A stretch of 55,640 bases of DNA from Lachnospiraceae bacterium (GTDB lineage: Bacteria > Bacillota > Clostridia > Lachnospirales > Lachnospiraceae), in NCBI GenBank assembly GCA_017463225.1, contig JAFTPO010000032.1:1-55640 (forward strand), in the 5' to 3' direction. The position numbers were made by a program, and so were the translations under genes. The notes under the pieces are model-generated. The model was not told the DNA's origin and made no database searches. It saw only the letters and a list, made by a program, of their open reading frames with translations. This document shows positions 20,453 through 51,500 of the stretch, in pieces (positions within the stretch are counted from its first letter, which is position 1; each line of letters opens with the position of its first letter).

Positions 20453-20471
20453 ATATATTTGTACGTAAACA

Positions 20472-20503
20472 AAAAGCCCTTAGGCGTATGGCCGAGGGCT
20501 TTT
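20472..20503 (+). terminator. Terminator of the LCP gene; left arm also pairs beyond element A
   Basis: AAAAGCCCT (20472-20480) pairs locally with AGGGCTTT (20495-20502). The same left arm plus the following bases (20471-20489) is an inverted copy of 20764-20781 (one mismatch), on the far side of element A, so two alternative pairings exist. Confidence 0.85.
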
Positions 20504-20512
20504 CCTATGTCC

Positions 20513-20741
20513 GGTATAACTAGAGCCGGTGCTTAAGCTACACACATTATCGCATTGTTTTTCTAATGCCCAGAGCAAGTCTCTGACCCAGTTCGCCACC
20601 GCCTCAGAGTCGCCGTCCTTGGCTCCTCAGAGGCTGCCACAGACGTCCGTGTCTGTGGCTGGCTACATTACGAAGCTGGGCATAAGAAAAAGCTAATGCT
20701 CAAATGCAAAAGTAGCATTAAGCACCAGCTCTAGTTATACC
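20513..20741 (+). repeat. RTCCGT twin-hairpin element, copy A
   Basis: 229 nt. Outer stem: 20513-20536 with 20718-20741 (one C-A mismatch), extended by GCTAC/GTAGC. Second stem: GCATT/AATGC. Third: TTTTTCT-A-ATGCCCAG (20558-20573) with CTGGGCAT-A-AGAAAAA (20676-20691), a conserved A-A mismatch. Inside are two hairpins: CCTCAGAG...CTCAGAGG with loop GTCCTT, and GCCACAGAC/GTCTGTGGC with loop GTCCGT. Element B has the same plan, same spacer lengths and different paired sequence. It lies in the convergent gap between the LCP and TraX-like genes. Confidence 0.85.
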
Positions 20742-20788
20742 TTACATATTTTAAGCGTTGAAATATACGCCTAAAGGCTTTTCGTTTT

Positions 20789-21586
20789 TTATAATAGTAC
20801 AGTATATAGAATATATATCACCAGCATATGGACTGGGTAGTAGGCGTAGAAGAAATACTTCATGGATGGCCCCTTTTTGTGGTTGTGAAGTAGGATTGGG
20901 ATAAGGGCAAATACTGCGTATTTTTCCACTCCGCCGTATAGGAAAAATATAAGGCAAAATACCACTCCACAGCATATGAGAGGATTTTGGTTTAGCAGAT
21001 AAAAGGTTACAATTAATATTACTCCGAAGCTTCCGTAATCGGTTTTGATTAGGTCTGCTAATATAGCTCCGGCCAAAATTATTAAAAAGTAGCTTACACG
21101 AAGCATAATGTAGTTAGCAGGATTTTCGTGGCTTTTAAGATGGTGAATAGCTGCTATTACAACAAGACCTATAAATAGGGTAAAATATACGTTCAATCCT
21201 CCATCCAGGTATAAAGGAATCTTGTTGGACAGAAGACTGAAGGGAACCTGAGATATGATTGCAAATACTAAAAGTCTGGCAGCGTATTTTTTTACATCTT
21301 TTGTATAGAGCAAGCCTTGGGCGATTAGGTAGCAAAATATAGGAAAGGCAATTCGCCCGATGTAGCGGAACATATTATAGGTGTCATAGGTCATAAAACC
21401 GGACAGAAAGATTGTGCCTCTTTCTTCGTTGAAGTCGGTCCCAAGTCCCACAGCCACATGGTCTATAGTCATAGATATTATGGCTATAAGCTTAAGGATA
21501 AAGGTGTTTAGGAAGCCCTGCTTTAAAAAGTTATTACTTTGCTCGGTTGAATTGTTTTCCGGTGATAAAAATGTATTGTCAGTCAT
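20789..21586 (-). CDS. TraX-family multi-pass membrane protein
   Basis: 265 residues with about eight hydrophobic helices. N-terminal soluble part, then L-K-L-I-A-I-I-S-M-T-I-D-H-V-A, R-Y-I-G-R-I-A-F-P-I-F-C-Y-L-I-A-Q-G and, at the end, Y-Y-P-V-H-M-L-V-I-Y. These are typical of TraX proteins, named for the F-plasmid pilin acetylase; chromosomal Firmicutes copies are common and have no proven substrate. No conjugation genes are near, so an acyl transfer role on a surface component is inference. Monocistronic. Confidence 0.88.
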   Translation of the reverse strand: MTDNTFLSPENNSTEQSNNFLKQGFLNTFILKLIAIISMTIDHVAVGLGTDFNEERGTIFLSGFMTYDTYNMFRYIGRIAFPIFCYLIAQGLLYTKDVKKYAARLLVFAIISQVPFSLLSNKIPLYLDGGLNVYFTLFIGLVVIAAIHHLKSHENPANYIMLRVSYFLIILAGAILADLIKTDYGSFGVILIVTFYLLNQNPLICCGVVFCLIFFLYGGVEKYAVFALIPILLHNHKKGPSMKYFFYAYYPVHMLVIYILYTVLL

Positions 21587-21679
21587 ATTGAATGTCCTCG
21601 TAAATATAATATAGCCACTGTCTTACAGAGACTTATGATATATTATAGAGGTAATATGCGCATTTTCGCAAGAAATTTG

Positions 21680-21708
21680 TTGACAAGAAAAAACTTATAT
21701 ATTACATT
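21680..21708 (+). promoter_or_regulatory. metK promoter
   Basis: TTGACA (21680-21685), 17-base spacer, TACATT (21703-21708), just before the riboswitch. Confidence 0.6.
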
Positions 21709-21716
21709 TGTTTTAT

Positions 21717-21832
21717 CTCTCTTATTAAGAGTGGTGGAGTCATAAGGGACTGTGAAGCCACGGCAACCCCGTATCATCAGCGGAAGGTGCCGGCCCGAGC
21801 GACACTTTATTTAGTAGTCGAGCAATAAGAGG
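21717..21832 (+). ncRNA. SAM riboswitch (S-box-like)
   Basis: Closing stem CTCTTATT (21719-21726) with AATAAGAG (21824-21831). Core motifs GTGGTGGAG, TGAAGCCACGGCAACC and AAGGTGCC are those of SAM-I-type riboswitches, and the next gene is SAM synthetase. The stretch between GGAG and TGAAGCC differs from the standard S-box, so the exact class (SAM-I against SAM-I/IV) needs a covariance search. Binding of SAM should allow the terminator at 21853 to form. Confidence 0.85.
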
Positions 21833-21890
21833 ATTTGATTATATGGTATTCAAATCCGGTTGTGTCCCTTACAATCGGATTCGTTTTTTT
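21831..21890 (+). terminator. Riboswitch expression platform: antiterminator and terminator
   Basis: Terminator: AATCCGGTTGT (21853-21863) with ACAATCGGATT (21871-21881), then CG and seven T. Alternative: GGATTTGA (21831-21838) can pair with TCAAATCC (21850-21857) and consume the left terminator arm. Confidence 0.85.
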
Positions 21891-21906
21891 ATGGAGGAAA
21901 TATACA

Positions 21907-23094
21907 ATGGAAAAATTATTATTCACATCAGAATCAGTAACTGAGGGACATCCTGACAAAATCTGTGACCAGATTTCAGATGCTATCCTTGACGCAATTT
22001 TAGAGCAGGATCCTATGAGTAGAGTTGCCTGCGAGACTGCTTGTACTACAGGACTTGTTCTTGTAATGGGTGAGATTACAACAAAGGCGCAGATTGATAT
22101 TCAGTCAATCGTTAGAGAGACAGTAAGAGAGATAGGCTATGACAGAGCAAAGTATGGCTTTGACTGTGATACCTGTGGAGTTATTACAGCTTTAGATAAG
22201 CAGTCAGCTGATATAGCTATGGGAGTTGACAAGGCTCTTGAGGCAAAGGAAAACAATATGAGTGACGAGGAGATTGAGGCAATCGGTGCCGGCGACCAGG
22301 GTATGATGTTTGGTTATGCTGTAAATGAGACACCAGAGCTTATGCCTTATCCAATTTCACTTGCTCACAAGCTTGCTTTAAGACTTACAGAGGTTAGAAA
22401 GAATGGAACACTTCCTTATCTTAGACCGGATGGAAAGACTCAGGTTTCAGTAGAGTATGATGAGAGTGGTAAGCCATTTAGATTAGATGCAGTTGTACTT
22501 TCTACACAGCATGGCGAGGAGGTTACTCAGGAGCAGATTCACGCAGATATTAAGAAGTATGTATTCGATGAGATTCTTCCTAAGGAGATGGTGGATGAGA
22601 ACACTAAGTTCTTCATAAACCCAACAGGAAGATTCGTTATCGGTGGACCAAACGGTGACAGTGGTCTTACAGGACGTAAGATTATCGTAGACACCTATGG
22701 TGGATACGGTCGCCATGGTGGTGGTGCATTCTCAGGTAAGGATTGTACAAAGGTTGATAGATCAGCAGCTTACGCAGCAAGATATGTTGCAAAGAATATA
22801 GTAGCAGCAGGTTTAGCAGATAAGTGTGAGATTCAGCTCTCATACGCTATTGGTGTTGCAAGACCAACATCTATAATGGTAGATACCTTTGGCACAGGCA
22901 AGATAGCTGATGATAAGCTTGTGGAGATTATCAGAGAGAACTTTGATTTAAGACCGGCAGGCATTATTAAGATGCTTGACTTAAGACGTCCAATCTATAA
23001 GCAGACAGCTGCTTACGGACACTTTGGAAGAACAGATATTGACCTTCCTTGGGAGAAGACTGACATGGTAGACAAGCTTAAGACATATTTATAG
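21907..23094 (+). CDS. metK: S-adenosylmethionine synthetase
   Basis: 395 residues from the ATG at 21907, with GGAGG at 21893-21897; the frame opens earlier at 21835 inside the riboswitch, which is not the real start. Hallmarks: [11 protein letters not shown] at the N terminus, [11 protein letters not shown] hexapeptide region, and [10 protein letters not shown]-loop-like motif. It makes SAM from methionine and ATP as a tetramer in the cytoplasm. Regulated by the SAM riboswitch. The transcarbamylase gene follows within 30 bases, so that gene too should respond to SAM. Confidence 0.97.
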
Positions 23095-23124
23095 GATATG
23101 CGGGAATTAGAGAGGTATAATGAT

Positions 23125-24057
23125 ATGAAGAATATGCTTAATTTTAAGAACTTTTCTGCAGAGGAGCTGCAGGAGATATTAGATCTTGCCCTTGATATGA
23201 AGAAGGATCCAAAGAAGTATTCTAAGGCTTTAGAGGGAAAGAAGCTTTACACACTTTTTGAGAAGACATCAACCAGAACATTTTTATCCTTTGAAACAGG
23301 TATAACAGAGCTTGGTGGACATTATTTCAACCAGCTTTGGAGCAATTCAAACTTCGTCCTTGGTGAGCCGGTATCAGAGATAAAATACGTGTGTAGAAAT
23401 GTAGATATTATTATGGCAAGACTTATAAAGAATGAGACTGTGGAGCTTTTCGGTAAGCACGCAACAGTTCCATTTATCAATGGCTGTGATAACTCATATC
23501 ATCCATGCCAGATTCTTGCAGATGCCCTTACTATCATAGAGCATTTCGGAAGCTTAGATGTTAAGCTTCTGTACATAGGAGCTAAGAATAATGTATTTAA
23601 TTCACTTGTAGAGTTCTTTGCTAAGATGAAGAAGGGTACAATTTACGGACTTACTCCACTTGTAAATGATACTGTATGTGGTGATGATTTCTATGAGGCT
23701 GCAAAGGCTACAGGACATTATGTAGAGCTTGACCCTGCTATGAGCATTGAAGAGGCTAAGACATACGTTAAGGATATGGATATACTCTACACAGATACAT
23801 GGGTAGATATGGAGTTCTTTAACAATCCTGCATATGCTAAGCAGAAGGAAGAAACTATGGCTAAGATGATGCCATATCAGATAAATGATGAGTTTGTAGA
23901 GGGAAGTAAGGCAGTTGTATTCCATGATATGCCAATGCATGTAGGCTTTGAGATATCTCAGAGTATTATAGACAAGAATCTGGATATAATTCTTGATCAG
24001 GCTGAGAACAGACGTCATGCTGAAAAGGCTGTTATGGTTACTCTTCTTAAGGATTAA
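23125..24057 (+). CDS. Atypical ornithine/aspartate transcarbamylase-family protein
   Basis: 310 residues from the ATG at 23125 (GAGAGG nine bases before); an ATG at 23098 lacks a site. The carbamoyl-phosphate half is intact: K-T-S-T-R-T, M-A-R, H-P-C-Q. The second-substrate half is not: the ornithine motif D-x-W-x-S-M reads D-T-W-V-D-M, and H-C-L-P reads H-D-M-P; the third basic residue of S-T-R-T-R is F. Only the late R in E-N-R-x-H-A is kept. So a true OTC is unlikely and the acceptor is unknown. It is in an operon with metK, under the SAM riboswitch, and not with arginine genes. Confidence 0.85.
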   Translation: MKNMLNFKNFSAEELQEILDLALDMKKDPKKYSKALEGKKLYTLFEKTSTRTFLSFETGITELGGHYFNQLWSNSNFVLGEPVSEIKYVCRNVDIIMARLIKNETVELFGKHATVPFINGCDNSYHPCQILADALTIIEHFGSLDVKLLYIGAKNNVFNSLVEFFAKMKKGTIYGLTPLVNDTVCGDDFYEAAKATGHYVELDPAMSIEEAKTYVKDMDILYTDTWVDMEFFNNPAYAKQKEETMAKMMPYQINDEFVEGSKAVVFHDMPMHVGFEISQSIIDKNLDIILDQAENRRHAEKAVMVTLLKD

Positions 24058-24069
24058 GGAGGAGCTTGA

Positions 24070-24573
24070 ATGGACGTTTGGATAGGCGTTCTGGCCTTTG
24101 TGCTTTTTCTGGGATTTTTTACAGCTTTATATGTTTGTATAGGAGCCGTAAAACGCCAGTCTGGTATTGTGATAGCCAGTCGAATAAGGCGGAAAACAGA
24201 AAATGGAGAGGTAATATATGCAAATATTGCACTGGTGGTAATGGTGGTTTTGGTGTATTTTAAGCTGTACACCTTTGTTCCGGCGGTGATAACCTTTGTG
24301 GCATTTATAGTTATGTCTACAAGGATTAAAAGTGGTATTACTGATGAGGGTGCCATAATAGGAACAACCTTCCTTGAGTGGGATGATATGAGAAGCTATA
24401 AGCTGGTGGACGACCCTGAGGATAGCAATATTATAATCCTCAAAATACGTGCCAACAGAAAGCAGTATGTTTTGGTGTGCGACAGAAGGGATAGAGGAAA
24501 AATCGCAGAGATTATGAAGAAAAATTATGTGGAAACTACCCTTACCATACACTCAAAGCAAAGAATAAAATAA
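24070..24573 (+). CDS. Two-helix membrane protein with DUF5673-like domain
   Basis: 167 residues: hydrophobic segments at about 5-26 and 50-80, then a cytoplasmic domain with G-T-T-F-L-E-W-D-D-M-R-S-Y and I-L-K-I-R-A-N-R, the pattern of the PH-like DUF5673 domain. It begins 12 bases after the transcarbamylase gene, with GGAGC upstream, so the three genes metK-transcarbamylase-this one form an operon closed by a terminator. No function is known for the family. Confidence 0.75.
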   Translation: MDVWIGVLAFVLFLGFFTALYVCIGAVKRQSGIVIASRIRRKTENGEVIYANIALVVMVVLVYFKLYTFVPAVITFVAFIVMSTRIKSGITDEGAIIGTTFLEWDDMRSYKLVDDPEDSNIIILKIRANRKQYVLVCDRRDRGKIAEIMKKNYVETTLTIHSKQRIK

Positions 24574-24584
24574 TTAAGCAAACT

Positions 24585-24641
24585 AAGGGATTGAAAGGGA
24601 AGATAATGAAGCAAATATTTTCCTTCTTTAATCCCTTTTTT
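24585..24641 (+). terminator. Terminator of the metK operon
   Basis: AAGGGATTGAAAG (from 24585) pairs with CTTTAATCCCTT, with further GGAA/TTCC pairing inside, followed by a T-run. Confidence 0.85.
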
Positions 24642-24642
24642 A

Positions 24643-24672
24643 TTGACAAGAAATAGCGGTTAGGGATATTAT
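24643..24672 (+). promoter_or_regulatory. pyrBI promoter
   Basis: TTGACA (24643-24648), 18-base spacer, TATTAT (24667-24672). I saw no PyrR-type attenuator in the 65-base leader. Confidence 0.7.
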
Positions 24673-24738
24673 GTTATTAATTATAATTATGTCCAAAAGT
24701 AGGAATTAACAAAATTAGGATTGGAGACTAAGTATATT

Positions 24739-25656
24739 ATGAAGCATTTAATTGATCCAACTGATCTCACAGTACAGGAGATTGATGACATCTTAGATCT
24801 GGCTATAGATATAATTAATGATAAGGAAAAGTATCAGGATGCTTGTAAGCGCAAGAAGCTTGCAACATTATTTTTCGAACCAAGTACAAGAACCCGTCTT
24901 AGCTTTGAAGCTGCCATGATGGAGTTAGGTGGTAACGTGCTTGGTTTTTCTTCTGCTGATTCATCCTCAACAGCTAAGGGCGAAAGTGTGGGAGATACCA
25001 TAAGAACCGTAGGCTGCTATGCTGATATCATTGCCATGAGACATCCTAAGGAGGGTGCTCCACTTCTTGGTTCATTTGTATCAGAGGTGCCTATAATTAA
25101 TGCAGGTGACGGTGGACATAACCACCCAACTCAGACGCTCACAGATTTACTAACTATTAAGAGGGAGAAGGGAAGACTAGATAACTTTACCATAGGTCTC
25201 TGTGGGGACTTAAAGTTTGGACGAACTGTTCACTCTCTCATTAAGGCTCTTTCCAGATACGAGGGTATTAAGTATGTGCTTATATCTCCTAACGAGCTTA
25301 AGGTTCCGGATTATATTATCACAGAAGTGTTCAAGAAGAATAATATAGAATATAAAGAGGTTTCCACTATGGAGGAGGTTATGGATGAGCTTGATATCAT
25401 CTACATGACCAGAGTACAGAAGGAGAGATTCTTTAATGAGGCTGATTATATCAGGTTGAAGGATACTTATATTCTAGATAAGAGCAAGCTAAAAACAGCA
25501 AAGCCTGATCTTTCCATCCTTCACCCACTTCCAAGAGTAAATGAGATTTCGACAGATGTGGATAATGACCCAAGAGCATGTTATTTCAGACAGGCCCTTA
25601 ATGGCAAATATGTCCGTATGGCTCTTATTATGACTATGTTGGAGGTGACCGTATAA
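24739..25656 (+). CDS. pyrB: Aspartate carbamoyltransferase catalytic subunit
   Basis: 305 residues from ATG 24739 (M-K-H-L-I-D-P-T-D matches other PyrB starts; GGAG 12 bases before). Catalytic motifs are intact: F-F-E-P-S-T-R-T-R, the S-x-x-K 80s loop (S-S-S-T-A-K-G-E-S), H-N-H-P-T-Q, T-R-V-Q-K-E-R and H-P-L-P-R. It makes carbamoyl-aspartate, the first committed step of pyrimidine synthesis. The stop overlaps the pyrI start by one base, which fits the two-subunit E. coli-type holoenzyme. It is a clear contrast to the altered transcarbamylase at 23125. Confidence 0.97.
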
Positions 25657-26069
25657 TGAAGATTGAAAGTATTCAAAATGGAATCGTATTAGATCATATC
25701 ACTGCAGGAAAGGCGCTTCTTGTATATCATGACTTAGGTCTTGACCAGCTTGATTGCAGTATAGGTATTCTTCAGAATGTAAAGAGTAGCAAGATGGGAA
25801 AGAAGGATATTTTAAAGATTCATCAGGAGTATGATATTAATCTTGACGTGTTAGGATATATTGATCCGGACATTACTGTTAGTATTATTAAGGATGGCCA
25901 GACAGTGGAGAAGAAGAAGCTTAAGCTTCCTGAGAAGCTTATAAACGTGCGAAAGTGTAAGAATCCACGTTGTATAACCTCTGTAGAGCAGGAAATACCT
26001 CATATATTTAAGCTTACTGACGAAGAAAATCGAGTTTATCGATGCATATATTGCGAGGCAGATAAGTAA
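25656..26069 (+). CDS. pyrI: Aspartate carbamoyltransferase regulatory subunit
   Basis: 137 residues. N-terminal allosteric nucleotide-binding domain (G-I-V-L-D-H-I-x-x-G-K-A near residue 9) and C-terminal zinc domain with C-K-N-P-R-C and C-I-Y-C, the four cysteines that join it to the catalytic trimers. It gives feedback control by CTP and ATP. Translationally coupled to pyrB through the TAATG overlap. Confidence 0.95.
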   Translation: MKIESIQNGIVLDHITAGKALLVYHDLGLDQLDCSIGILQNVKSSKMGKKDILKIHQEYDINLDVLGYIDPDITVSIIKDGQTVEKKKLKLPEKLINVRKCKNPRCITSVEQEIPHIFKLTDEENRVYRCIYCEADK

Positions 26070-26095
26070 ACATAGTAAGTAGAATGATTTTTTAG

Positions 26096-26123
26096 TTTAC
26101 ATTTTATTTGAATGTGATATAAT
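26096..26123 (+). promoter_or_regulatory. murA promoter
   Basis: TTTACA (26096-26101), 16-base spacer, TATAAT (26118-26123). Confidence 0.6.
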
Positions 26124-26171
26124 TTATAAGACTATGTATAATGTCCTAACTATAGGGCAATGAGGTGTGAA

Positions 26172-27476
26172 ATGGAAAAGTATGTTATAAAGGGCGGCCA
26201 GGTTCTGGAGGGAGAGGTCACCATTGCAGGAGCTAAGAATGCGGCTTTAGGTATCTTAGCAGCTGCTGTCCTTACAGATGAGGAATGTATCATAGAGAAT
26301 GTTCCTTACGTTGAGGATACAAAGGTGCTTCTTGGAGCTATTGAGAACATAGGTGCCAAGGTTAAGTATATAGATGAACACACAGTTTCCATATGTGGAG
26401 GAACTATTGAGGACCATGAGGACTTATGTGTTGATGATGAATACATAAGAAAGATTAGAGCATCATATTACCTTTTAGGTGCTTTGCTTGGTAAGTTTAA
26501 TCATGCACAAGTTGCACTCCCTGGTGGTTGTGACATCGGACTTAGACCTATAGATCAGCATATTAAGGGCTTTGAGGCCTTAGGTGCTGTAGTTGATATA
26601 GTGAATGGTGGAAAGGTTGTTGCAAAGGCAGATAAGCTTATAGGTAATCATATTTACCTTGATGTTGTAACTGTAGGTGCCACTATCAATATAATGATGG
26701 CAGCAGTTTTGGCAGAGGGTAAGACTACCATAGAGAATGCTGCAAAGGAGCCACATATAGTTGACGTGGCCAACTTCCTTAACAGTATGGGTGCTAACAT
26801 AAAGGGTGCCGGTACTGATGTAATTAGAATTCGTGGAGTGCAGAAGCTTAAGGGCACATGCTACTCTATTATTCCTGACCAGATTGAGGCAGGTACATTT
26901 ATGACCATGGCTGCAGCTACCGGTGGTAATATTCTAATTAAGAATGTTATACCTAAGCATTTGGAGGCTATTACCTCTAAGCTTAATGAGATTGGAGCTA
27001 ACGTTATAGAGTACGATGATTCAGTTAGAGTTATGGCGGATGGAAGACTCAAGTGTACTCAGATAAAGACTCTTCCATATCCGGGATTCCCTACAGATAT
27101 GCAGCCACAGATGGCTGTTACGCTTGCATTATCTCAGGGAACAAGTGTTATTACAGAGAGCATATTTGAGAACAGATTCAAATATGTTGGAGAGCTGTCA
27201 CGTATGGGTGCTCGTATTAAAGTAGAGGGTAATTCTGCGGTTATCAATGGTATAGAAAAATATTGTGGTGCTAGTCTTGTTGCACCTGATCTTAGAGCCG
27301 GAGCGGCTTTAGTTATTGCAGCTCTTGCGGCAGAGGGTTACAGTACCATTGAGGACATAAAATATATCTTGAGAGGCTATGAGAATTTTGATGGCAAGAT
27401 TAGAGACTTGGGCGGTAAGATTCAGATAGCTGATTCTGACAGAGATGTTCAGAAATTTAAATTAATGGTAGGTTAA
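26172..27476 (+). CDS. murA: UDP-N-acetylglucosamine 1-carboxyvinyltransferase
   Basis: 434 residues from the ATG at 26172, preceded by GAGGTG; the ATG at 26160 overlaps that site and is not used. EPSP-synthase fold with K-N-A-A-L near the start and the catalytic loop L-P-G-G-C-D-I-G-x-R-P-I-D-x-H, where C120 is the fosfomycin-sensitive cysteine. It adds enolpyruvate from PEP to UDP-GlcNAc, the first committed peptidoglycan step, in the cytoplasm. Firmicutes often carry two copies; which type this is cannot be settled here. The metG gene follows after 20 bases. Confidence 0.96.
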   Translation: MEKYVIKGGQVLEGEVTIAGAKNAALGILAAAVLTDEECIIENVPYVEDTKVLLGAIENIGAKVKYIDEHTVSICGGTIEDHEDLCVDDEYIRKIRASYYLLGALLGKFNHAQVALPGGCDIGLRPIDQHIKGFEALGAVVDIVNGGKVVAKADKLIGNHIYLDVVTVGATINIMMAAVLAEGKTTIENAAKEPHIVDVANFLNSMGANIKGAGTDVIRIRGVQKLKGTCYSIIPDQIEAGTFMTMAAATGGNILIKNVIPKHLEAITSKLNEIGANVIEYDDSVRVMADGRLKCTQIKTLPYPGFPTDMQPQMAVTLALSQGTSVITESIFENRFKYVGELSRMGARIKVEGNSAVINGIEKYCGASLVAPDLRAGAALVIAALAAEGYSTIEDIKYILRGYENFDGKIRDLGGKIQIADSDRDVQKFKLMVG

Positions 27477-27496
27477 TTAAGGGGGTACAAAAGGAC

Positions 27497-29491
27497 ATGG
27501 CAAAGAAACCATATTATATTACAACGGCTATAGCTTATACTTCAGGAAAGCCTCATATAGGTAATACCTATGAAGTAGTTTTAGCTGACAGTATCGCAAG
27601 ATACAAGAGATTTGTGGGATACGATGTAAGATTCCAGACAGGTACTGACGAGCACGGACAGAAGATTGAGATTAAGGCTTTTGAGAGTCTCAATACTCCT
27701 AAGGAGTTTGTAGATGAGGTATCAGGACAGATTAAGTCTATCTGGGATTTAATGAACACATCTTATGATAAGTTTATAAGAACTACTGATCCTGACCATG
27801 AGAAGCAGGTACAGAAGATTTTTAAGAAGCTTTATGACCAGGGCGATATATATAAGGGTGAGTACGAGGGCATGTACTGTACTCCATGTGAGTCATTCTT
27901 CACATCATCACAGCTTGTAGATGGAAAGTGTCCGGACTGTGGCAGGGAGTGTCAGCCAGCTAAGGAGGAGGCTTACTTCTTCAAGCTTAGCAAGTATGCT
28001 GATAAGCTTATTGACCACATTAACTCACATCCTGAGTTTATTCAGCCGGAGTCTAGAAAGAATGAGATGATGAATAACTTCCTCATTCCGGGACTTCAGG
28101 ATTTATGTGTATCAAGAACTTCATTTAAGTGGGGTATACCTGTAGAGTTTGACCCGGGACATGTTATCTATGTATGGATTGATGCATTATCAAACTATAT
28201 TACAGGTCTTGGATATGATTGTGATGGCGTAAGTGATGAGCTTTACAGACGTTACTGGCCTGCAGATCTTCACCTTATTGGTAAGGATATATTAAGATTC
28301 CACACTATTTACTGGCCTATTATGCTTATGGCACTTGGGGAGCCACTTCCAAAGCAGATATTTGGACATCCATGGCTTATCCAGAGTGATGGAAAGATGA
28401 GTAAGTCTCGTGGAAATGTTATCTATGCAGATGATATGGTTGACTTATTCGGTGTTGATGCAGTTAGATATTTTGTTCTTCATGAGATGCCATTTGAGAA
28501 TGATGGAGTTATCTCTTGGGAGCTTGTAATAGAGAGAATTAATGCAGAGCTTGCAAACACACTTGGTAACCTTGTTAACAGAACTATTTCTATGTCAAAC
28601 AAGTACTTCGACGGTGTTGTTACTAATGCAGGTGAGCACCAGTCTGTTGACGATGAGCTTCGTGATGTGGTTGTAAATACCAGACTTAAGGTTAATCAGG
28701 CTATGGACAAGCTTAGAGTTGCAGATGCTATGACTGAGATATTTAATCTCTTCAAGAGATGCAACAAGTACATCGATGAGACAATGCCTTGGGCTCTTGC
28801 AAAGGATGAGGAGCAGAAGGACAGACTCAATACAGTTCTCTACAACTTAGTTGAGAGTATTGCTGTTGGTGCTACACTTCTTGAGCCATTTATGCCAGAG
28901 ACCTCAGAGAAGATTTTAAAGCAGCTTAACACAGAAAAGAGAAGAGTTACTGAGCTTTCACAGTTTGGACTTTATCCATCAGGAAATAAGGTTACTTCTG
29001 AGCCAGAGATTCTTTTCGCTAGAATAGATGCTCCAGCTATGTTAGATGAGATTGAGAAGAGATTCCCATCTAAGGTAGTAGAGGAGGAGTCTGTAAAGGA
29101 AGAGAAGCCTAAGAAGAAGGAGAAGGTAGAGCTTAAGATACCTACTCTTGACGCTGTTGTTAAGGAGCAGATTACTATAGAGGAATTCGATAGAATGCAG
29201 CTTCAGATGGGTGAGATTCTCTCATGTGAGGAGGTAAAGGACTCTAAGAAGCTTCTTTGCTCACAGGTTCAGATTCAGGGAAGAGTTCTTCAGATTGTAT
29301 CTGGAATCAAGAACTACTATACTCCAGAGCAGATGGTTGGAAAGAAGGTTGTTGTTATCACTAACCTTAAGCCAACAAAGCTTGCAGGAGTTTTATCAGA
29401 GGGTATGCTCCTTTGTGCTGAGGATTTCGAGGGTAACCTTGCACTTCTTACAGCAGAGAAGGATATGCCAGCAGGAGCTATGATTAGCTAA
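27497..29491 (+). CDS. metG: Methionyl-tRNA synthetase
   Basis: 664 residues. Class I core with the HIGH-type motif P-H-I-G-N (19-23) and K-M-S-K-S (300-304); zinc knuckle cysteines at 128, 131, 145 and 148; a lysine/glutamate linker near 545-565; and a C-terminal EMAP/Trbp tRNA-binding domain (about 565-664) that gives the dimeric form. It charges methionine onto initiator and elongator tRNA. It is probably co-transcribed with murA and ends at a strong terminator. Confidence 0.97.
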   Translation: MAKKPYYITTAIAYTSGKPHIGNTYEVVLADSIARYKRFVGYDVRFQTGTDEHGQKIEIKAFESLNTPKEFVDEVSGQIKSIWDLMNTSYDKFIRTTDPDHEKQVQKIFKKLYDQGDIYKGEYEGMYCTPCESFFTSSQLVDGKCPDCGRECQPAKEEAYFFKLSKYADKLIDHINSHPEFIQPESRKNEMMNNFLIPGLQDLCVSRTSFKWGIPVEFDPGHVIYVWIDALSNYITGLGYDCDGVSDELYRRYWPADLHLIGKDILRFHTIYWPIMLMALGEPLPKQIFGHPWLIQSDGKMSKSRGNVIYADDMVDLFGVDAVRYFVLHEMPFENDGVISWELVIERINAELANTLGNLVNRTISMSNKYFDGVVTNAGEHQSVDDELRDVVVNTRLKVNQAMDKLRVADAMTEIFNLFKRCNKYIDETMPWALAKDEEQKDRLNTVLYNLVESIAVGATLLEPFMPETSEKILKQLNTEKRRVTELSQFGLYPSGNKVTSEPEILFARIDAPAMLDEIEKRFPSKVVEEESVKEEKPKKKEKVELKIPTLDAVVKEQITIEEFDRMQLQMGEILSCEEVKDSKKLLCSQVQIQGRVLQIVSGIKNYYTPEQMVGKKVVVITNLKPTKLAGVLSEGMLLCAEDFEGNLALLTAEKDMPAGAMIS

Positions 29492-29510
29492 TATCAATAA
29501 AGAAGTTATT

Positions 29511-29546
29511 AAAGCCACCGTGTGTAAGCAGGGTGGCTTTATTTTG
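29511..29546 (+). terminator. metG terminator
   Basis: AAAGCCACC (29511-29519) pairs with GGTGGCTTT (29532-29540), followed by ATTTTGT. Confidence 0.9.
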
Positions 29547-29618
29547 TGTAGTAAGTAGATTTTTATAGTATAAAATGTTACAATCACCGTATGAATTGTT
29601 ACGGTATGTGAGGATAGG

Positions 29619-30404
29619 ATGAAGGAAGTAATTATAAATAATTTAAAAGATGAAAAAACAGCAAAAAAGCCTCGTTACTATGTGCTGGATATCATAAGGG
29701 GGATTTGTATTGTTTTAGTGGTTATTTACCATCTTTTATATGATCTTAGTGAGGTATTTGGAGGGAATTATTCCTTTTTTAGATCCCCAGGAATGGAAGC
29801 ATTTAGAGATGCCTTTGTTGGTACGCTAATTTTGTTGTCGGGTATATCCTGTAATTTAAGCAAGAGTAACATTAAACGAGGAGTAAAAACCTTCCTGTGT
29901 GGTATGCTAATATCTGTTGTTATGCTAGTGGTGATGCCTGCTTCAAAGGTGTATTTTGGAATACTGCATTTTCTGGGATTTTCTATGATTTTATATGGTC
30001 TGTTGGCTAAAATTATGGAAAAGATCCCCGTTCATATAGGCTTTCTGGGATTACTACTGGTTCATATGTTGACTTTAGGGGTGTATGATGGCTATTTTGG
30101 TTGGCCAGGACTTTTTATGATGGATATTCCACAGATGCCAAAGAATTTGATACTTTTTATATTAGGTTTTAATACTGGGCATGGCGCTGGTGATCATTGG
30201 GCTATTGTTCCTTGGCTATTCTTGTTTCTTTCAGGAACATTTTTAGGAAGATATTTTAAGGAAGGAAATGTGCCAAAATGGTTTGAGAAAAATCCCATAC
30301 CGCCCCTTGCATTTATAGGTAGAAAAACATTGATAATATATCTGGTGCATCAGCCGCTGATATATGGGTTTTTGTATTTGATTTACAACGGTATAGGTAT
30401 ATAA
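29619..30404 (+). CDS. Heparan-alpha-glucosaminide acetyltransferase-like membrane protein (DUF1624)
   Basis: 261 residues, about seven transmembrane helices after a short basic tail. The pattern R-Y-Y-V-L-D-I-I-R-G-I-C-I-V-L-V-V-I-Y-H-L-L-Y-D-L at the first helix, with the probable active histidine, and F-I-G-R-K-T-L-I-I-Y-L-V-H-Q-P at the last, are typical of the DUF1624/YeiB-like acyltransferase group. These are thought to acetylate cell-surface sugars using cytoplasmic acetyl-CoA. The substrate is unknown. The gene stands alone. Confidence 0.82.
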   Translation: MKEVIINNLKDEKTAKKPRYYVLDIIRGICIVLVVIYHLLYDLSEVFGGNYSFFRSPGMEAFRDAFVGTLILLSGISCNLSKSNIKRGVKTFLCGMLISVVMLVVMPASKVYFGILHFLGFSMILYGLLAKIMEKIPVHIGFLGLLLVHMLTLGVYDGYFGWPGLFMMDIPQMPKNLILFILGFNTGHGAGDHWAIVPWLFLFLSGTFLGRYFKEGNVPKWFEKNPIPPLAFIGRKTLIIYLVHQPLIYGFLYLIYNGIGI

Positions 30405-30407
30405 GAA

Positions 30408-30445
30408 TAGAGGGCTACATTTTATGATTGTAGCCCTCTACTTTT
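30408..30445. terminator. Bidirectional terminator
   Basis: TAGAGGGCTACA (30408-30419) is the exact inverse of TGTAGCCCTCTA (30429-30440), in the gap between two convergent genes, with T-runs on either strand. Confidence 0.9.
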
Positions 30446-30863
30446 ATTCATTTAAACCATCCTTTACACCCTTTGTAACTTCTCTTGCAACCTCACCGTA
30501 TGTAGGAGCCATATCCTTTAGGTGCTCCTGCATTATTGGAGTCATGTATTCTAGATTTTCTTTCATAATAGGTCGCATTTGCTTCATACCATCCTGCATA
30601 AGAGGCATCATTTCCTGCATCTGATATGCCATAATCTGACGTCTGTTTCCCAGAAAGAATCGAACTGCACATCCTACTATGGTAAGAAATATGCCAGGTA
30701 AGATTAGGAACATTCCTGTGGAACCCTCAAACATATTGGATGAGGTAGCAATCCAAAATATACCTACACCCAGTAGTGCAATACCTATTAGCATTATGAT
30801 TAGTCCGGCGATCTTGATACCCTTGTTAGTTTTTTGATAGTTTTGTTCCTTTAAATAACCCAT
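30444..30863 (-). CDS. Two-helix membrane protein with Met-rich amphipathic tail, unknown
   Basis: 139 residues from the ATG at 30863, which has AGGGGGG 8-9 bases upstream; an earlier ATG has no site. Two hydrophobic helices (about 17-41 and 49-70) are followed by a tail with repeats of about ten residues (M-M-P-L-M-Q-D-G-M, M-R-P-I-M-K-E-N, M-T-P-I-M-Q-E-H, M-A-P-T-Y-G-E), each with M-x-P. This looks like an amphipathic helix that may lie on the membrane or mediate assembly. I do not recognise the family. Confidence 0.7.
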   Translation of the reverse strand: MGYLKEQNYQKTNKGIKIAGLIIMLIGIALLGVGIFWIATSSNMFEGSTGMFLILPGIFLTIVGCAVRFFLGNRRQIMAYQMQEMMPLMQDGMKQMRPIMKENLEYMTPIMQEHLKDMAPTYGEVAREVTKGVKDGLNE

Positions 30864-30937
30864 AAAATTTACCCCCCTTTTGTCGAATTGTAGCATATGA
30901 AAAGCTGGGGGACAAGCTTAAAAAATGAGCGTACATT

Positions 30938-30966
30938 TGCAATAATGTAGCAGATATGCTATAATA
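30938..30966 (+). promoter_or_regulatory. glmS promoter
   Basis: TTGCAA (about 30938-30943), 17-base spacer, TATAAT (about 30961-30966). Confidence 0.7.
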
Positions 30967-30984
30967 ACCCAGTCTATAGGTGGA

Positions 30985-31160
30985 GGATATAGATTTCGAA
31001 AGGTTAAGAACCTTAGCGCCATGCACCTTGTGGGAGTGAACAAGGTTAACGAGGTAAAGAGTTTATCGAATATTCGGCGGATGCTCTTTCGCGCAACTGA
31101 GCGTGTTATGCCGGGACAAATATGAGGGCAACCTCAAAACAAATCCCGTCAATCAGTGCA
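30985..31160 (+). ncRNA. glmS self-cleaving ribozyme
   Basis: The catalytic core of the glmS ribozyme is readable: cleavage site A-GCGCC (cut expected after A31015), then TTAACGAGGT, TTTATCGAA and TTCGGCGGATGCTCTTTCGC, which form the double-pseudoknot core. Downstream P3/P4 are seen as CGCGC...GCGTG and CGGGA...TGAGG-gcaa-CCTCA...TCCCG. The ribozyme uses glucosamine-6-phosphate as a cofactor and its cleavage leads to decay of glmS mRNA. The gene for GlmS follows at 31338, as expected. Together with the sORF at 31273 it accounts for the 474-base gap before glmS. Confidence 0.95.
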
Positions 31161-31272
31161 GTGATAGATATTATTTATGTTCTATGTATGCGGAGAAAAG
31201 GTTGGGCATATATAATACTTGAGCTGGTTAAATTTTGAAGATAAATGAGATGACAGGAATGGAGAATTCACT

Positions 31273-31335
31273 ATGAGCAATGTGGCCGTACTAGTGGGTG
31301 TATTTTTTGTTGTCAGAAAGAAAGAGGTAAATTAA
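31273..31335 (+). CDS. Possible 20-residue leader peptide before glmS
   Basis: ATG at 31273 with GGAG 9 bases before it, 20 hydrophobic, valine-rich codons (M-S-N-V-A-V-L-V-G-V...), ending in R-K-K-E-V-N and TAA two bases before the glmS ATG. The glmS ribosome site (GAGG) lies within its last codons, so translation of the two could be coupled. Could be chance; needs conservation. Confidence 0.4.
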   Translation: MSNVAVLVGVFFVVRKKEVN

Positions 31336-31337
31336 AT

Positions 31338-33152
31338 ATGTGTGGAATTATAGGATTTACAGGTAATATACCTGCAAAGGATGTAATTATAGGTGGACTG
31401 GAAACTCTAGAGTATCGTGGTTATGATAGTGCAGGTGTTGCCCTTCTTAATGATGGAGAGATTACCGTTAAGAAGAGAACCGGTAAGGTTGAGGAGCTTA
31501 AGAAGCTTTGCACTGATATGGATAATCCGGCAACCTGTGGTATAGGCCATACAAGATGGGCTACACATGGCGGAGTAACGGATGCAAATGCACATCCTCA
31601 CAAGTGTGGTCAGGTTGTGCTTATTCATAACGGTATCATCGAGAATTATCGTCAGCTTATAACAGAGTATGGTCTTGCAGATGACCTTGTATCTGAGACA
31701 GACACAGAGGTTGTGGCAGCTCTTATTAATAAGTTCTACGAGGGAGATCCTGTTAAGGCTATTAAGAAGGCTGTAAAGGTATTATCAGGTGCCTTTGGAC
31801 TTTGTATTATGTTCCAGGATATTCCTGACACCATTTATTGTATCAGAAATGTAAGCCCACTTGTGGCAGCAACAAGCGACAAGGGCTCAGTAATTGCTTC
31901 TGACCTTACAGCGTTAATTGCATATTCTAAGGATTATTTTGTAGTGCCAGAATACCACCTTTTGACACTTACAAAGGATGGTATCGATGTAAGAGATATG
32001 AAGGGTAATGAGGTTAAGCCACAGATGCTTTCTGTAAACTGGGATATTACCAGCGCTCAGAAGGGCGGATACCCATTCTTTATGTTAAAGGAAATCTATG
32101 AGCAGCCGGATGCTATTAGAAATACTGTAGCTCCAAGAGTAATGGATGGCATGCCTGATTTTACTGATGACGGAATTGACGATTCAGTATTTGAAAATAT
32201 TGATAAGGTGACAGTTATCGGATGCGGTACAGCTATGCACGCAGGTATGGTTGGAAAGCATCTTATAGAGGCAAAGCTTCGTATACCAGTTCAGGTGGAG
32301 ATAGCTTCAGAGTTTAGATATAAGAATCCTATCATCGATGAGAAAACTCTTACTATAGTGCTTTCTCAGTCAGGTGAGACTATAGATACCCTTGAGGCTA
32401 TGAAGCTTGCAAAGGCAAATGGTTCAAAGGTTATCTCTATCGTAAATGTTAAGGGCTCAAGCATTGCCAGAGAAAGCGACTATGTGCTTTACACTCATGC
32501 TGGCCCTGAGATTGCAGTTGCCAGCACAAAGGCTTACACAGTTCAGGTCGCTGCAATGTACTTAATCGCAGCCAGAATGGGTGTGGTAAAGAAGCTTGTA
32601 TCAGATTCAGAAACCAAGAAGTTTATGACCAAGCTTGTTAACACTCCTAACATAATCGAGGAGACTCTTGAGGGAGCAAATGATATTAAGCGCGTAGCAA
32701 ACCACATCAAGCTTTCTCCGGATGCATTCTACATAGGTAGAGGTCTTGACTACACTATGAGTCTTGAGGCATCTCTAAAGCTTAAGGAGATTTCATATAT
32801 TCACGCGGAGGCATATGCTGCAGGGGAGCTTAAGCATGGAACTATAGCCCTTATTACCGAAAATGTACCTGTTATTGCCATAGCAACTCAAGAGGATGTA
32901 TATGAGAAGGTTATCTCTAACATTCGTGAGGTTAAGGCAAGAGGCGCTTACGTTATCCTCATCAGCATGGATGAAAAGGTTGATGATGACAAAATCTGCG
33001 ATAAGCACATTCGCATACCAAAGCTTGACCCAGAGTTCACAGCCTTCTCTACAGCTGTTATCTTACAGCTTATCGCATACTACACTTCTGAGGCCAAAGG
33101 ACTTGACGTTGACAAGCCACGTAACCTTGCCAAGTCAGTTACTGTAGAGTAA
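31338..33152 (+). CDS. glmS: Glutamine-fructose-6-phosphate aminotransferase (isomerizing)
   Basis: 604 residues, full length. Class II glutaminase domain with nucleophile C2 (M-C-G-I-I-G), R-W-A-T-H-G and H-N-G-I-I-E-N-Y; two SIS sugar-isomerase domains (about 285-600) with S-Q-S-G-E-T-I-D-T and the C-terminal P-R-N-L-A-K-S-V-T-V-E. It makes glucosamine-6-phosphate, feeding UDP-GlcNAc for the wall and MurA. Feedback by the ribozyme upstream closes the loop. Followed by a terminator and then two large structured elements. Confidence 0.97.
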   Translation: MCGIIGFTGNIPAKDVIIGGLETLEYRGYDSAGVALLNDGEITVKKRTGKVEELKKLCTDMDNPATCGIGHTRWATHGGVTDANAHPHKCGQVVLIHNGIIENYRQLITEYGLADDLVSETDTEVVAALINKFYEGDPVKAIKKAVKVLSGAFGLCIMFQDIPDTIYCIRNVSPLVAATSDKGSVIASDLTALIAYSKDYFVVPEYHLLTLTKDGIDVRDMKGNEVKPQMLSVNWDITSAQKGGYPFFMLKEIYEQPDAIRNTVAPRVMDGMPDFTDDGIDDSVFENIDKVTVIGCGTAMHAGMVGKHLIEAKLRIPVQVEIASEFRYKNPIIDEKTLTIVLSQSGETIDTLEAMKLAKANGSKVISIVNVKGSSIARESDYVLYTHAGPEIAVASTKAYTVQVAAMYLIAARMGVVKKLVSDSETKKFMTKLVNTPNIIEETLEGANDIKRVANHIKLSPDAFYIGRGLDYTMSLEASLKLKEISYIHAEAYAAGELKHGTIALITENVPVIAIATQEDVYEKVISNIREVKARGAYVILISMDEKVDDDKICDKHIRIPKLDPEFTAFSTAVILQLIAYYTSEAKGLDVDKPRNLAKSVTVE

Positions 33153-33186
33153 ACGTCTCAATCATACATAGTTGAAGCAAAGTCAA

Positions 33187-33216
33187 CCCTTCCGCAGCTT
33201 GCGGAGGGGTTTTTCT
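33187..33216 (+). terminator. glmS terminator
   Basis: CCCTTCCGC (33187-33195) pairs with GCGGAGGGG (33201-33209), followed by TTTTT. Confidence 0.9.
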
Positions 33217-33222
33217 TTATCG

Positions 33223-33448
33223 CGAGGAACACCTGGGCTGGCACAGTTACTCACTTTGTCGTGCCGTTTTTCTAATACCCGGATAAACATCTTCATAGCT
33301 TCCGCCACCGCCCCATAGTCACCATCCGTGGTTCCTATGGGGCTCGCGCTGACATCCGTGTCATCCCGTGGCTGGTTTACTCAGTCCGGGTATAAGAAAA
33401 ACTGGCACTCCTTCGCAAAAGTAGCTGTGCCAGCCCAGGTGTTCCTCG
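33223..33448 (+). repeat. RTCCGT twin-hairpin element, copy B
   Basis: 226 nt. Outer arms 33223-33246 and 33425-33448 are an exact 24-bp inverted repeat, extended by T-TAC/GTA-G to 28 bp. Inside: GTGCC/GGCAC; TTTTTCT-A-ATACCCGG with CCGGGTAT-A-AGAAAAA; hairpin CCCCATAG/CTATGGGG with inner ACC/GGT and loop ATCCGT; hairpin TGAC/GTCA with loop ATCCGT. Spacers match copy A in length (16 nt before the conserved stem, 30 nt before the first hairpin). The whole, with the glmS terminator, is enclosed by a further inverted repeat, 33172-33188 and 33482-33497. Confidence 0.85.
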
Positions 33449-33588
33449 TATCTAAGTATATAATACCGCAAGCTACGAGAAGGTGACTTTGCTTCAATGC
33501 CTTCGGCAAGCGTGGTATGAGTTGCATCGCCATAGGCGATGAAGTTGATTTGTGCCCTGCGCATATGTGCCAATCTACATATGTGTAA
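33449..33588. other. Spacer between elements B and D with further hairpins
   Basis: No gene. It holds the right arm of the outer B repeat (33482-33497), GCC-TTC-GGC, CATCGCC-ata-GGCGATG (around 33525-33541), ATACCGC...GCGTGGTAT, and GCGCATATGTGCC (33559-33571), the last an inverted copy of 33841-33853 beyond element D. Confidence 0.6.
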
Positions 33589-33821
33589 GGTATAAGGTGT
33601 TGCCGGGCTGACAAGCTGACATTACAACGAGGAGGAAGATTTTCTTATGTCCAAGATTCATTAAAGAAGGGGAGCGCTGGCACGGATGCCAGCGCAGTTC
33701 CCTCCCGTGCACGGACGCACGGTAGGGAACGAGCCCCGTAATGTAAGGATATTTATACTTGGACATTAGAAAATCTCTCCGCAGTTGTACGGAAGCTGTC
33801 TGCCCGGCAACACCTTATACC
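33589..33821 (-). repeat. RTCCGT twin-hairpin element, copy D
   Basis: 233 nt, in the opposite orientation to A and B. Outer arms 33589-33608 and 33802-33821 are an exact 20-bp inverted repeat. Read on the minus strand: GATTTTCT-A-ATGTCCAAG with CTTGGACAT-A-AGAAAATC; a 30-nt spacer, as in A and B; hairpin GTTCCCT-A-CCGTGC/GCACGG-G-AGGGAAC with loop GTCCGT; hairpin GCGCTGGC/GCCAGCGC with loop ATCCGT. Only the orientation of the asymmetric boxes fixes the strand. Confidence 0.85.
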
Positions 33822-33830
33822 GAGGCACAC

Positions 33831-33862
33831 AAAAAGCCCCGGCACATATGTGCTAGGGCTTT
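33831..33862 (-). terminator. Terminator of the lipoprotein gene
   Basis: On the minus strand AAAGCCC-ta-GCACATATGTGC-cg-GGGCTTT then TT. The GCACATATGTGC centre is itself a palindrome, repeated in inverted form at 33559-33571. Confidence 0.85.
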
Positions 33863-33888
33863 CAAATCAATTTCGTTTAATGGGCTGC

Positions 33889-50818: not shown

Positions 50819-51283
50819 ATGGTAGCAGAGACTAAATTTTTTGGAACTATTGATATTGAGGATGACAAGATAATCAACTTTCCTAATGGTATAATCGGAT
50901 TTGAGAATCTTAAGAATTTTGCTCTCATCTATGACTCAGAGCGTGAGGAGAGATCTAAGATTAGCTGGTTACAGTCTATGGAGGAGCCACTTATGGTGCT
51001 TCCTGTAATTAATCCACTTGACCTTATGGATAATTACACTCCAACTATAGAGGACGAGCTTATGAAGAATATAGGAGATCCTGCAGATGCAGATTTGCTT
51101 ATATTCGTAACTCTTTCTATACCATCAGATATTGAGCTGATGACTGCAAACCTTAAGGCACCATTTATCATTAACACTGTAGAGAGAAAGGCTATGCAGG
51201 TTATAGTTGAGAATGCTGAGTATCCGGTTAAGTTCAATGCTTACCAGGCTATTCAGGCTATGAAGGAAAAGGGAGGGGAGTAA
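50819..51283 (+). CDS. fliW: Flagellar assembly factor FliW
   Basis: 154 residues of the FliW beta-barrel: [35 protein letters not shown] and L-K-A-P-F-I-I-N. FliW binds either flagellin or CsrA; when flagellin is exported, freed FliW inhibits CsrA and flagellin mRNA is translated. The csrA gene starts two bases after its stop. Confidence 0.95.
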
Positions 51284-51284
51284 T

Positions 51285-51500
51285 ATGTTAGCACTATCAA
51301 GAAAGCAGGGGGAGTCCATTATGATAGGCAGCGACATCGAGCTCACTGTCCTTGAGGTAAAGGGTGACCAGATTAAGATAGGTATAAGTGCACCTAAGAG
51401 TGTACCTGTATATAGAAAGGAAATCTATACTCAGATTCAGGAGGAGAACAGAGCTACTGCAGCAACTGTGGATATAGAGAGCCTTAAGAAGCTGTTTTAA
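51285..51500 (+). CDS. csrA: Carbon storage regulator CsrA
   Basis: 71 residues. [12 protein letters not shown] start with L4 and R6, [16 protein letters not shown], and V-Y-R-K-E-I-Y with the RNA-binding arginine. A dimer that binds GGA in hairpin loops and blocks ribosome sites; in Firmicutes with FliW its main target is flagellin mRNA. Two leaders in this window carry such hairpins (51981 and 55507-55546). The stop codon lies at the base of element E. Confidence 0.96.

Follow-up and report, generated by a model that had tools for sequence, protein, structure and literature searches.

Correia, RUP and NEMIS elements are, alongside miniature inverted-repeat transposable elements (MITEs), named non-autonomous repeats of bacteria, and REP/REPIN sequences possess a linked RAYT transposase and stem-loops with REP tetranucleotides. 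FliW is a protein antagonist of CsrA in Bacillus subtilis. The RNA CsrB has many sites, each molecule binding about 18 CsrA subunits, and the 2020 review that describes it states that the joint action of FliW and small RNAs (sRNAs) on CsrA was undetermined in any species (PMC7652899). TwoAYGGAY, an RNA of gut bacteria, was listed in 2010 by Weinberg et al. as a probable RNA that is probably not cis-regulatory (PMC2864571). It was proposed in 2014 to bind CsrA and was likened to CsrB/RsmZ-type RNAs, with validation still pending there (PMC4333381). The same source proposes that the reverse strand of Bacillaceae-1 RNA (RF01690), a separate family, likewise binds CsrA in Firmicutes, and TwoAYGGAY has served as an example of improved structure prediction (PMC7657543, PMC11701678). 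Here, we describe three copies of TwoAYGGAY in a 55,640-nucleotide stretch of DNA from a Lachnospiraceae bacterium (GenBank assembly GCA_017463225.1, contig JAFTPO010000032.1, positions 1 to 55,640 of the forward strand), referred to below as the window. The RNA family and a functional proposal for it were thus already in print; the new aspect is that the RNA is carried in transposon-like repeats. We present evidence that TwoAYGGAY is the core of such a dispersed repeat, and on balance we consider it probable that its copies act as a decoy that withholds CsrA from mRNAs.

Like CsrB/CsrC and RsmX/Y/Z of Gammaproteobacteria, TwoAYGGAY carries the CsrA consensus in its hairpin loops; unlike those RNAs, it has two sites per RNA and up to 50 or more scattered copies, its hosts mostly carry fliW, and no promoter signal was found for it. 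Like MITEs, the TwoAYGGAY repeat is short and non-coding, possesses terminal inverted repeats and target duplications, is present in many copies, and has internally deleted forms; unlike MITEs, it carries a conserved structured RNA with protein-site loops, and its terminal repeats vary with the host lineage. Membership in REP/REPIN, considered from general knowledge of those elements, is unlikely because the repeat has long terminal repeats with 7-bp duplications. The Rfam model of the family, RF01731, ends inside the arms of the repeat, and a dispersed repeat with transposon-like ends is absent from the available part of the description by Weinberg et al. (PMC2864571). A literature search, conducted mostly outside subscription journals, found nothing on TwoAYGGAY as a mobile or high-copy repeat.

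The three copies had been noticed in a reading of the letters of the window alone (the original prediction), which described twin-hairpin elements and knew of no named family with their plan. An Rfam covariance search (gathering score 43) matched RF01731 to all three over model positions 1-168 of 168, which supplies the name and rules out a new RNA family. The elements lie where they had been placed, far from chance in both their RF01731 scores and their folding, and the conserved RNA strand is opposite to the one on which they had been read. Their parts, together with the larger unit that copies 2 and 3 form, are as follows.

20545 to 20706, minus strand: TwoAYGGAY RNA core of copy 1 (RF01731, 89.5 bits), with loops C-ACGGAC-G and C-AAGGAC-G
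20513 to 20741, minus strand: copy 1 with its proximal arms, from the sequence (the outer stem of the original prediction; fold z-score -11.7)
20765 to 20784, minus strand: 5' distal arm of copy 1, pairing by eye with 20470-20489
20470 to 20489, minus strand: 3' distal arm of copy 1, by eye within a terminator-like palindrome reaching to about 20505 (the terminator scan listed none)
33251 to 33418, minus strand: TwoAYGGAY RNA core of copy 2 (RF01731, 101.5 bits), with loop C-ACGGAT-G twice
33223 to 33448, minus strand: copy 2 with its proximal arms (fold z-score -14.3)
33482 to 33498, minus strand: 5' distal arm of copy 2, pairing by eye with 33171-33188
33171 to 33211, minus strand: 3' distal arm of copy 2 (by eye) and terminator hairpin (terminator-like site 33185-33211, plus strand, by scan)
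33622 to 33789, plus strand: TwoAYGGAY RNA core of copy 3 (RF01731, 82.6 bits), with loops C-ACGGAT-G and C-ACGGAC-G
33589 to 33821, plus strand: copy 3 with its proximal arms (fold z-score -15.3)
33545 to 33571, plus strand: 5' distal arm of copy 3, pairing by eye with 33841-33870
33841 to 33870, plus strand: 3' distal arm of copy 3 with a palindromic, terminator-like stem, by eye (the terminator scan did not list it)
33161 to 33882, no strand: divergent pair unit, made up of copies 2 and 3, their spacer and their distal arms; it occupies the whole interval between two convergent genes

None of 200 shuffles per copy folded as well as the natural sequence. On the RNA strand, five of the six loops in the window read AYGGAY and the remaining one AAGGAC, corresponding to the five RTCCGT loops and one GTCCTT loop that had been described on the other strand. 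The lower conserved stem with its A-A mismatch, also described before, was found by eye in the window copies, as was a constant 30-nt spacer; the stretch of that linker measured across a wider set of 41 diverse copies is 19-23 nt. In the same 41 copies, compensatory change (both sides altered and pairing kept in at least one copy) occurred at 23 of 25 predicted pairs, loop 1 kept invariant or near-invariant letters at C, A, GGA and G, and the C-G pair closing loop 1 was present in 41/41. The covariation in TwoAYGGAY is therefore real, and the earlier argument that fixed loops on changing stems reflect selection on a folded, RNA-like molecule holds. By eye, distal arms pair outside the outer stem that had been described for the window copies. 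The outer stems had been called unrelated between copies; they are the arms of dispersed transposon-like units, which accounts for this.

A covariance search for further copies, as the original prediction had proposed, returned many. The window's own genome (G000) holds ten copies rather than three, arranged as four divergent head-to-head pairs and two singles, and elsewhere at least 50 were counted in a genome. Among 30 RF01731-positive genomes picked for many copies or as exceptions, there were 1-50 matches per genome; these are minimum copy numbers (the large searches scored nine candidates in each genome and the 30-genome search at most 64). The 130 copies studied are a non-random set, drawn from genomes with many copies or pairs and mostly from the better-scoring matches. 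Seven genomes yielded 12 to 192 in-register copy pairs each. Among the best 14 matches per genome, those with the highest ranking pass beyond the RNA core and then stop sharply in six of these genomes. Unit lengths in the best matches are about 300-320 in G033, 370-420 in G264, 325-390 in G147, 330-510 in G122 and 340-730 in G105, and 710-720 for the divergent pairs of G000; in G327, a genome from another family of the class, four copies match over 215-303 positions. Several of the G122 copies lie at contig ends, which is typical of near-identical repeats.

The cleanest copies come from the relative G147, in which the units are about 313 bp long. Thirteen aligned copies there are bounded by inverted repeats of the GATTCGGGTGTCAAAAGG type, some of them worn, and a search with this terminal-repeat pattern (at most three mismatches) found 80 sites, versus 0 for the reversed control. 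The flanks of 33 distinct pairs of terminal repeats carry a 7-bp direct repeat with an identity of 0.73 versus 0.51 in shuffled flanks, nine being exact versus 1.2 expected; direct repeats of 4, 5, 6, 8, 9 and 10 bp gave no comparable signal. Terminal inverted repeats and a 7-bp target-site duplication, the hallmarks of a MITE, are thus both found in this genome. By eye, the G147 copies often lie beside T-runs. Terminal repeats vary by host lineage (GATTCGGGTGTCAAAAGG, CAGGGAAATC, ATTCGTAATATA): the tip of the G105 repeat is the same as that of G147, and the terminal repeats of G264 and G327 are unrelated. Exact occurrences of the G147 terminal pattern were found in two species genomes of the collection.

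In G147, 14 of the 33 terminal-repeat pairs span merely 69-203 bp. Ten short elements have, by eye, their arms in common and the middle, containing the RNA core, removed, and two 106-bp core-less forms share one junction.

Loci L177, L179, L190, L191, L193, L198, L182, L187, L200 and L174: internally deleted repeat forms

In the two 106-bp forms the second arm resembles, by eye, the first one in mirror image, which is what template switching within a palindrome would produce. One explanation of the repeat as a whole is that it is a purely selfish MITE whose two hairpins function in the DNA or RNA biology of the element itself, such as transposase recognition or RNA stability, and whose likeness to CsrA sites and link to csrA come from lineage. 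The inverted repeats, 7-bp duplications, high copy number, mixed orientation and absence of a promoter signal would all be expected of such an element. We regard this as unlikely, though it is the strongest of the alternatives. Duplications of the same type surround the core-less derivatives, including the two with a common junction, which suggests that movement does not need the core (deletion in place is possible), and three further results described below argue against a purely selfish element: the csrA link spans 11 families, the letters of the loops are specific to one strand and agree with the CsrA consensus, and the hairpins have fewer singletons than the arms.

Within the window's own genome, the repeated block reaches further than the ends first given for copies 2 and 3, extending over 33161-33882. 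This 722-bp pair unit aligns with positions 12629-13346 of contig C31 at 87.6% identity over 726 aligned positions, with sharp ends and different neighbours; a second pair of blocks, on contigs C32 and C33, is 81.8% identical. Copy 1 is alignable over 282 positions with a copy on C33. The pair unit begins at the 9th base past the glmS stop and ends 7 bases short of the convergent gene, and the T-run of the copy 2 terminator hairpin serves glmS, which is convergent to that copy. The site was compared in ten congeners whose glmS is complete or almost complete. In four of them (G588, G584, G590, G586) the gap between glmS and the convergent gene is without the unit, and in G582 a unit starts at the same site and the contig ends inside it; in the remaining five, either the contig ends or the convergent gene was not located beside glmS. 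The site beside glmS therefore varies within the window's genus, by either gain or loss. The window's own copies presumably arose by the same kind of transposition as those of G147. Carriage by phage or plasmid was dropped as a candidate, the 722-bp unit having no match in either the phage or the plasmid collection.

The divergent pair in the window, as a single duplicated block ending at arms with terminator-like stems, could also be taken to mean that these are ordinary stand-alone sRNA genes for a CsrA sponge, similar to CsrB or RsmZ and multiplied by duplication rather than by transposition. The match to the CsrA motif in print (PMC4333381) agrees with this explanation. The terminal inverted repeats with 7-bp direct repeats in relatives, the core-less derivatives, the presence of up to 50 copies, and the lack of a promoter signal do not, and we consider it improbable.

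A role in cis, as a terminator, RNA stabiliser or attenuator of adjacent genes, is suggested by the Rfam type of RF01731 (Cis-reg), by the intergenic location of the copies, and by the terminator-like stems of the arms. All nine counted copies in the window's own genome lie between convergent genes; the tenth (on C57) is between two minus-strand genes. In contrast to the Rfam label, neighbour orientation is approximately even among the 94 countable copies of the 130: on the 5' side 48 neighbours are on the same strand and 46 on the opposite strand, and on the 3' side 42 and 52, respectively. A fixed orientation to a regulated gene was therefore not found, and regulation in cis is not supported by this test. 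No function is common to the nine scanned neighbours of own-genome copies (the neighbours on C33 lay outside the scan), and Weinberg et al. scored the RNA as probably not cis-regulatory (PMC2864571). We consider action in cis the least probable of the explanations weighed here.

The published CsrA consensus from in vitro selection (SELEX) is RUACARGGAUGU, mostly within a six-base loop (PMC7652899). The loop letters of TwoAYGGAY and their closing pair fit this consensus. The motif CA(N)GGANG occurs two or more times in 90 of the 130 cores, once in 36, and not at all in four; on the other strand it is found in 0/130 cores, and 8.8% of shuffles contain at least one. A stricter form, CA(N)GGAYG, fits 20/20 loops of the ten copies in the window's own genome. 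Comparison of the four paralogous pairs of that genome showed differences at 0 of 48 fixed positions of the loops and at four free ones; the four chance values for this result multiply to about 0.006. Across 82 copies from five genomes, singletons amount to 12.5 per kb in the hairpins (77/6165), 20.0 in the lower stem and linkers (101/5052), and 27.2 in the arms (318/11711), the alignment of the arms being less sure. The RNA shares two features with Csr/Rsm sponges: several GGA hairpin loops (two per RNA) that fit the CsrA consensus, and hosts that carry CsrA.

The candidate partner and FliW are both encoded in the window.

50819 to 51283, plus strand: fliW (PF02623, E 1.2e-37)
51285 to 51500, plus strand: csrA, candidate binding partner of the TwoAYGGAY RNA (PF02599, E 8.2e-27)

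The genome has two csrA loci, one of them within the window. Contigs C22 and C26 of this 95-contig genome carry two fliW-csrA loci with identical scores, which could reflect either a real duplication or the assembly. Co-occurrence was assessed in 298 genomes of the family and 293 of the class, overlapping samples with five RF01731-positive genomes in common, and the presence lists and family counts were compared and counted by eye. In the family sample, csrA was found in 44/46 RF01731-positive versus 107/252 RF01731-negative genomes (p 1.2e-12), and in the class sample in 25/27 versus 79/266 (p 1.3e-10). At the level of families, all 11 that are RF01731-positive fall among the 34 csrA-positive of 74 (p 7e-5). 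RF01731 is almost confined to csrA-bearing genomes. Flagellin was present in 45/46 of the RF01731-positive family genomes and fliW in 63/68 of the RF01731-positive genomes. Two or more csrA genes were found in 11/44 RF01731-positive versus 10/107 RF01731-negative csrA-bearing genomes (p 0.018), an exploratory comparison counted by eye in which some second copies are weak. Genome G122 has 50 RF01731 matches, a divergent csrA match whose E-value is the weakest among the csrA-bearing, RF01731-positive family genomes, and no fliW match; the RNA may replace FliW there.

These observations suggest the following mechanism. The paired arms of the repeat would support a junction from which two stem-loops extend, both with a CsrA-type site, C-ANGGA-Y-G, in the hairpin loop, and each RNA could in this way bind a single CsrA dimer. 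The decoy would thereby withhold CsrA from its mRNAs, which are probably flagellar, in parallel to the FliW protein. Copies would move, or have moved, as discrete units into intergenic sites, driven by a mobilising enzyme. More tentatively, we suggest that these repeats are mobile elements with a CsrA decoy as cargo, in which a copy number set by transposition could tune a global regulator, and that Clostridia might possess an RNA arm of CsrA control beside the FliW arm. The function of TwoAYGGAY has been open since 2010, and the csrA association is a co-occurrence test of the 2014 CsrA proposal (PMC4333381). That proposal is strengthened by the association; we infer the subsequent steps, in which the RNA would be made, be bound by CsrA and change CsrA activity. 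If this is true, protein decoys are here being spread by a family of transposons. With fliW, csrA and the three RNA copies all in the window, and fliW in 63/68 RF01731-positive genomes, the question of whether FliW and sRNAs act together becomes directly testable.

Several observations weigh against a mobile CsrA decoy. With respect to mobility, the matches in G071 are hardly longer than the core, and the window's own units showed no clean target duplication and have terminal arms that are, by eye, only imperfect. A search for a transposase near the terminal repeats examined, which was not exhaustive, found none. It covered two named genomes with 38 loci, among which one terminal-repeat pair lies more than 400 bp apart and 12 ends are unpaired. 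Near that pair and five of the 12 unpaired ends there were 23 open reading frames (ORFs), and the 8 of these scanned with Pfam included no transposase; at 15 further G147 terminal-repeat loci, ORF lists were judged by eye on the first 40 residues each, without Pfam. The original prediction had also reported no transposase beside any copy, and Pfam found none in the four genes flanking the window copies; the family nonetheless behaves as a non-autonomous mobile repeat. With respect to expression, sigma70-like promoters were not enriched upstream (12% of 121 copies versus 13% antisense and 17% shuffled), and scans listed none around the window copies. This lack of enrichment gives no support to a sigma70 promoter belonging to TwoAYGGAY; transcription may come from read-through or from other sigma factors.

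Further points weigh against the decoy. Within G147 taken by itself, conservation of the hairpins is not clearly above that of the arms (9/988 versus 25/1909), gene conversion between copies could mimic constraint, and the window copies have longer stems than most SELEX hairpins, which have four pairs or fewer. RF01731 was scored as present only at E <= 0.001, below the Rfam cut-off, in two of the 46 family and nine of the 27 class genomes. Three drafts (G141, G448, G567) are without csrA and fliW matches. Since csrA, flagellin and fliW nearly coincide, csrA is inseparable from motility in these samples, and G267, a genome in a single contig, carries one copy with both loops intact but gave no match to csrA, flagellin or fliW. 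Such results would be accounted for if the AYGGAY loops were read by some protein besides CsrA that is tied to motile lineages, which we consider very improbable, given the close agreement of the loop and its closing pair with the CsrA consensus. A CsrA decoy remains our preferred explanation.

Other features lie close to these units. A TraX-family gene (20789-21586, minus strand) directly adjoins copy 1, and a SAM riboswitch (RF00162, 76 bits; 21719-21831, plus strand) lies just ahead of the ORF at 21835-23094. A glmS ribozyme (RF00234, 65 bits; 31004-31160, plus strand) precedes glmS, and the divergent TwoAYGGAY unit is found at the other end of that gene. Finally, beside the related unit on C31, a gene (L061, 3861-5789, minus strand) encodes an iron hydrogenase domain joined to a chemotaxis-receptor signalling domain.

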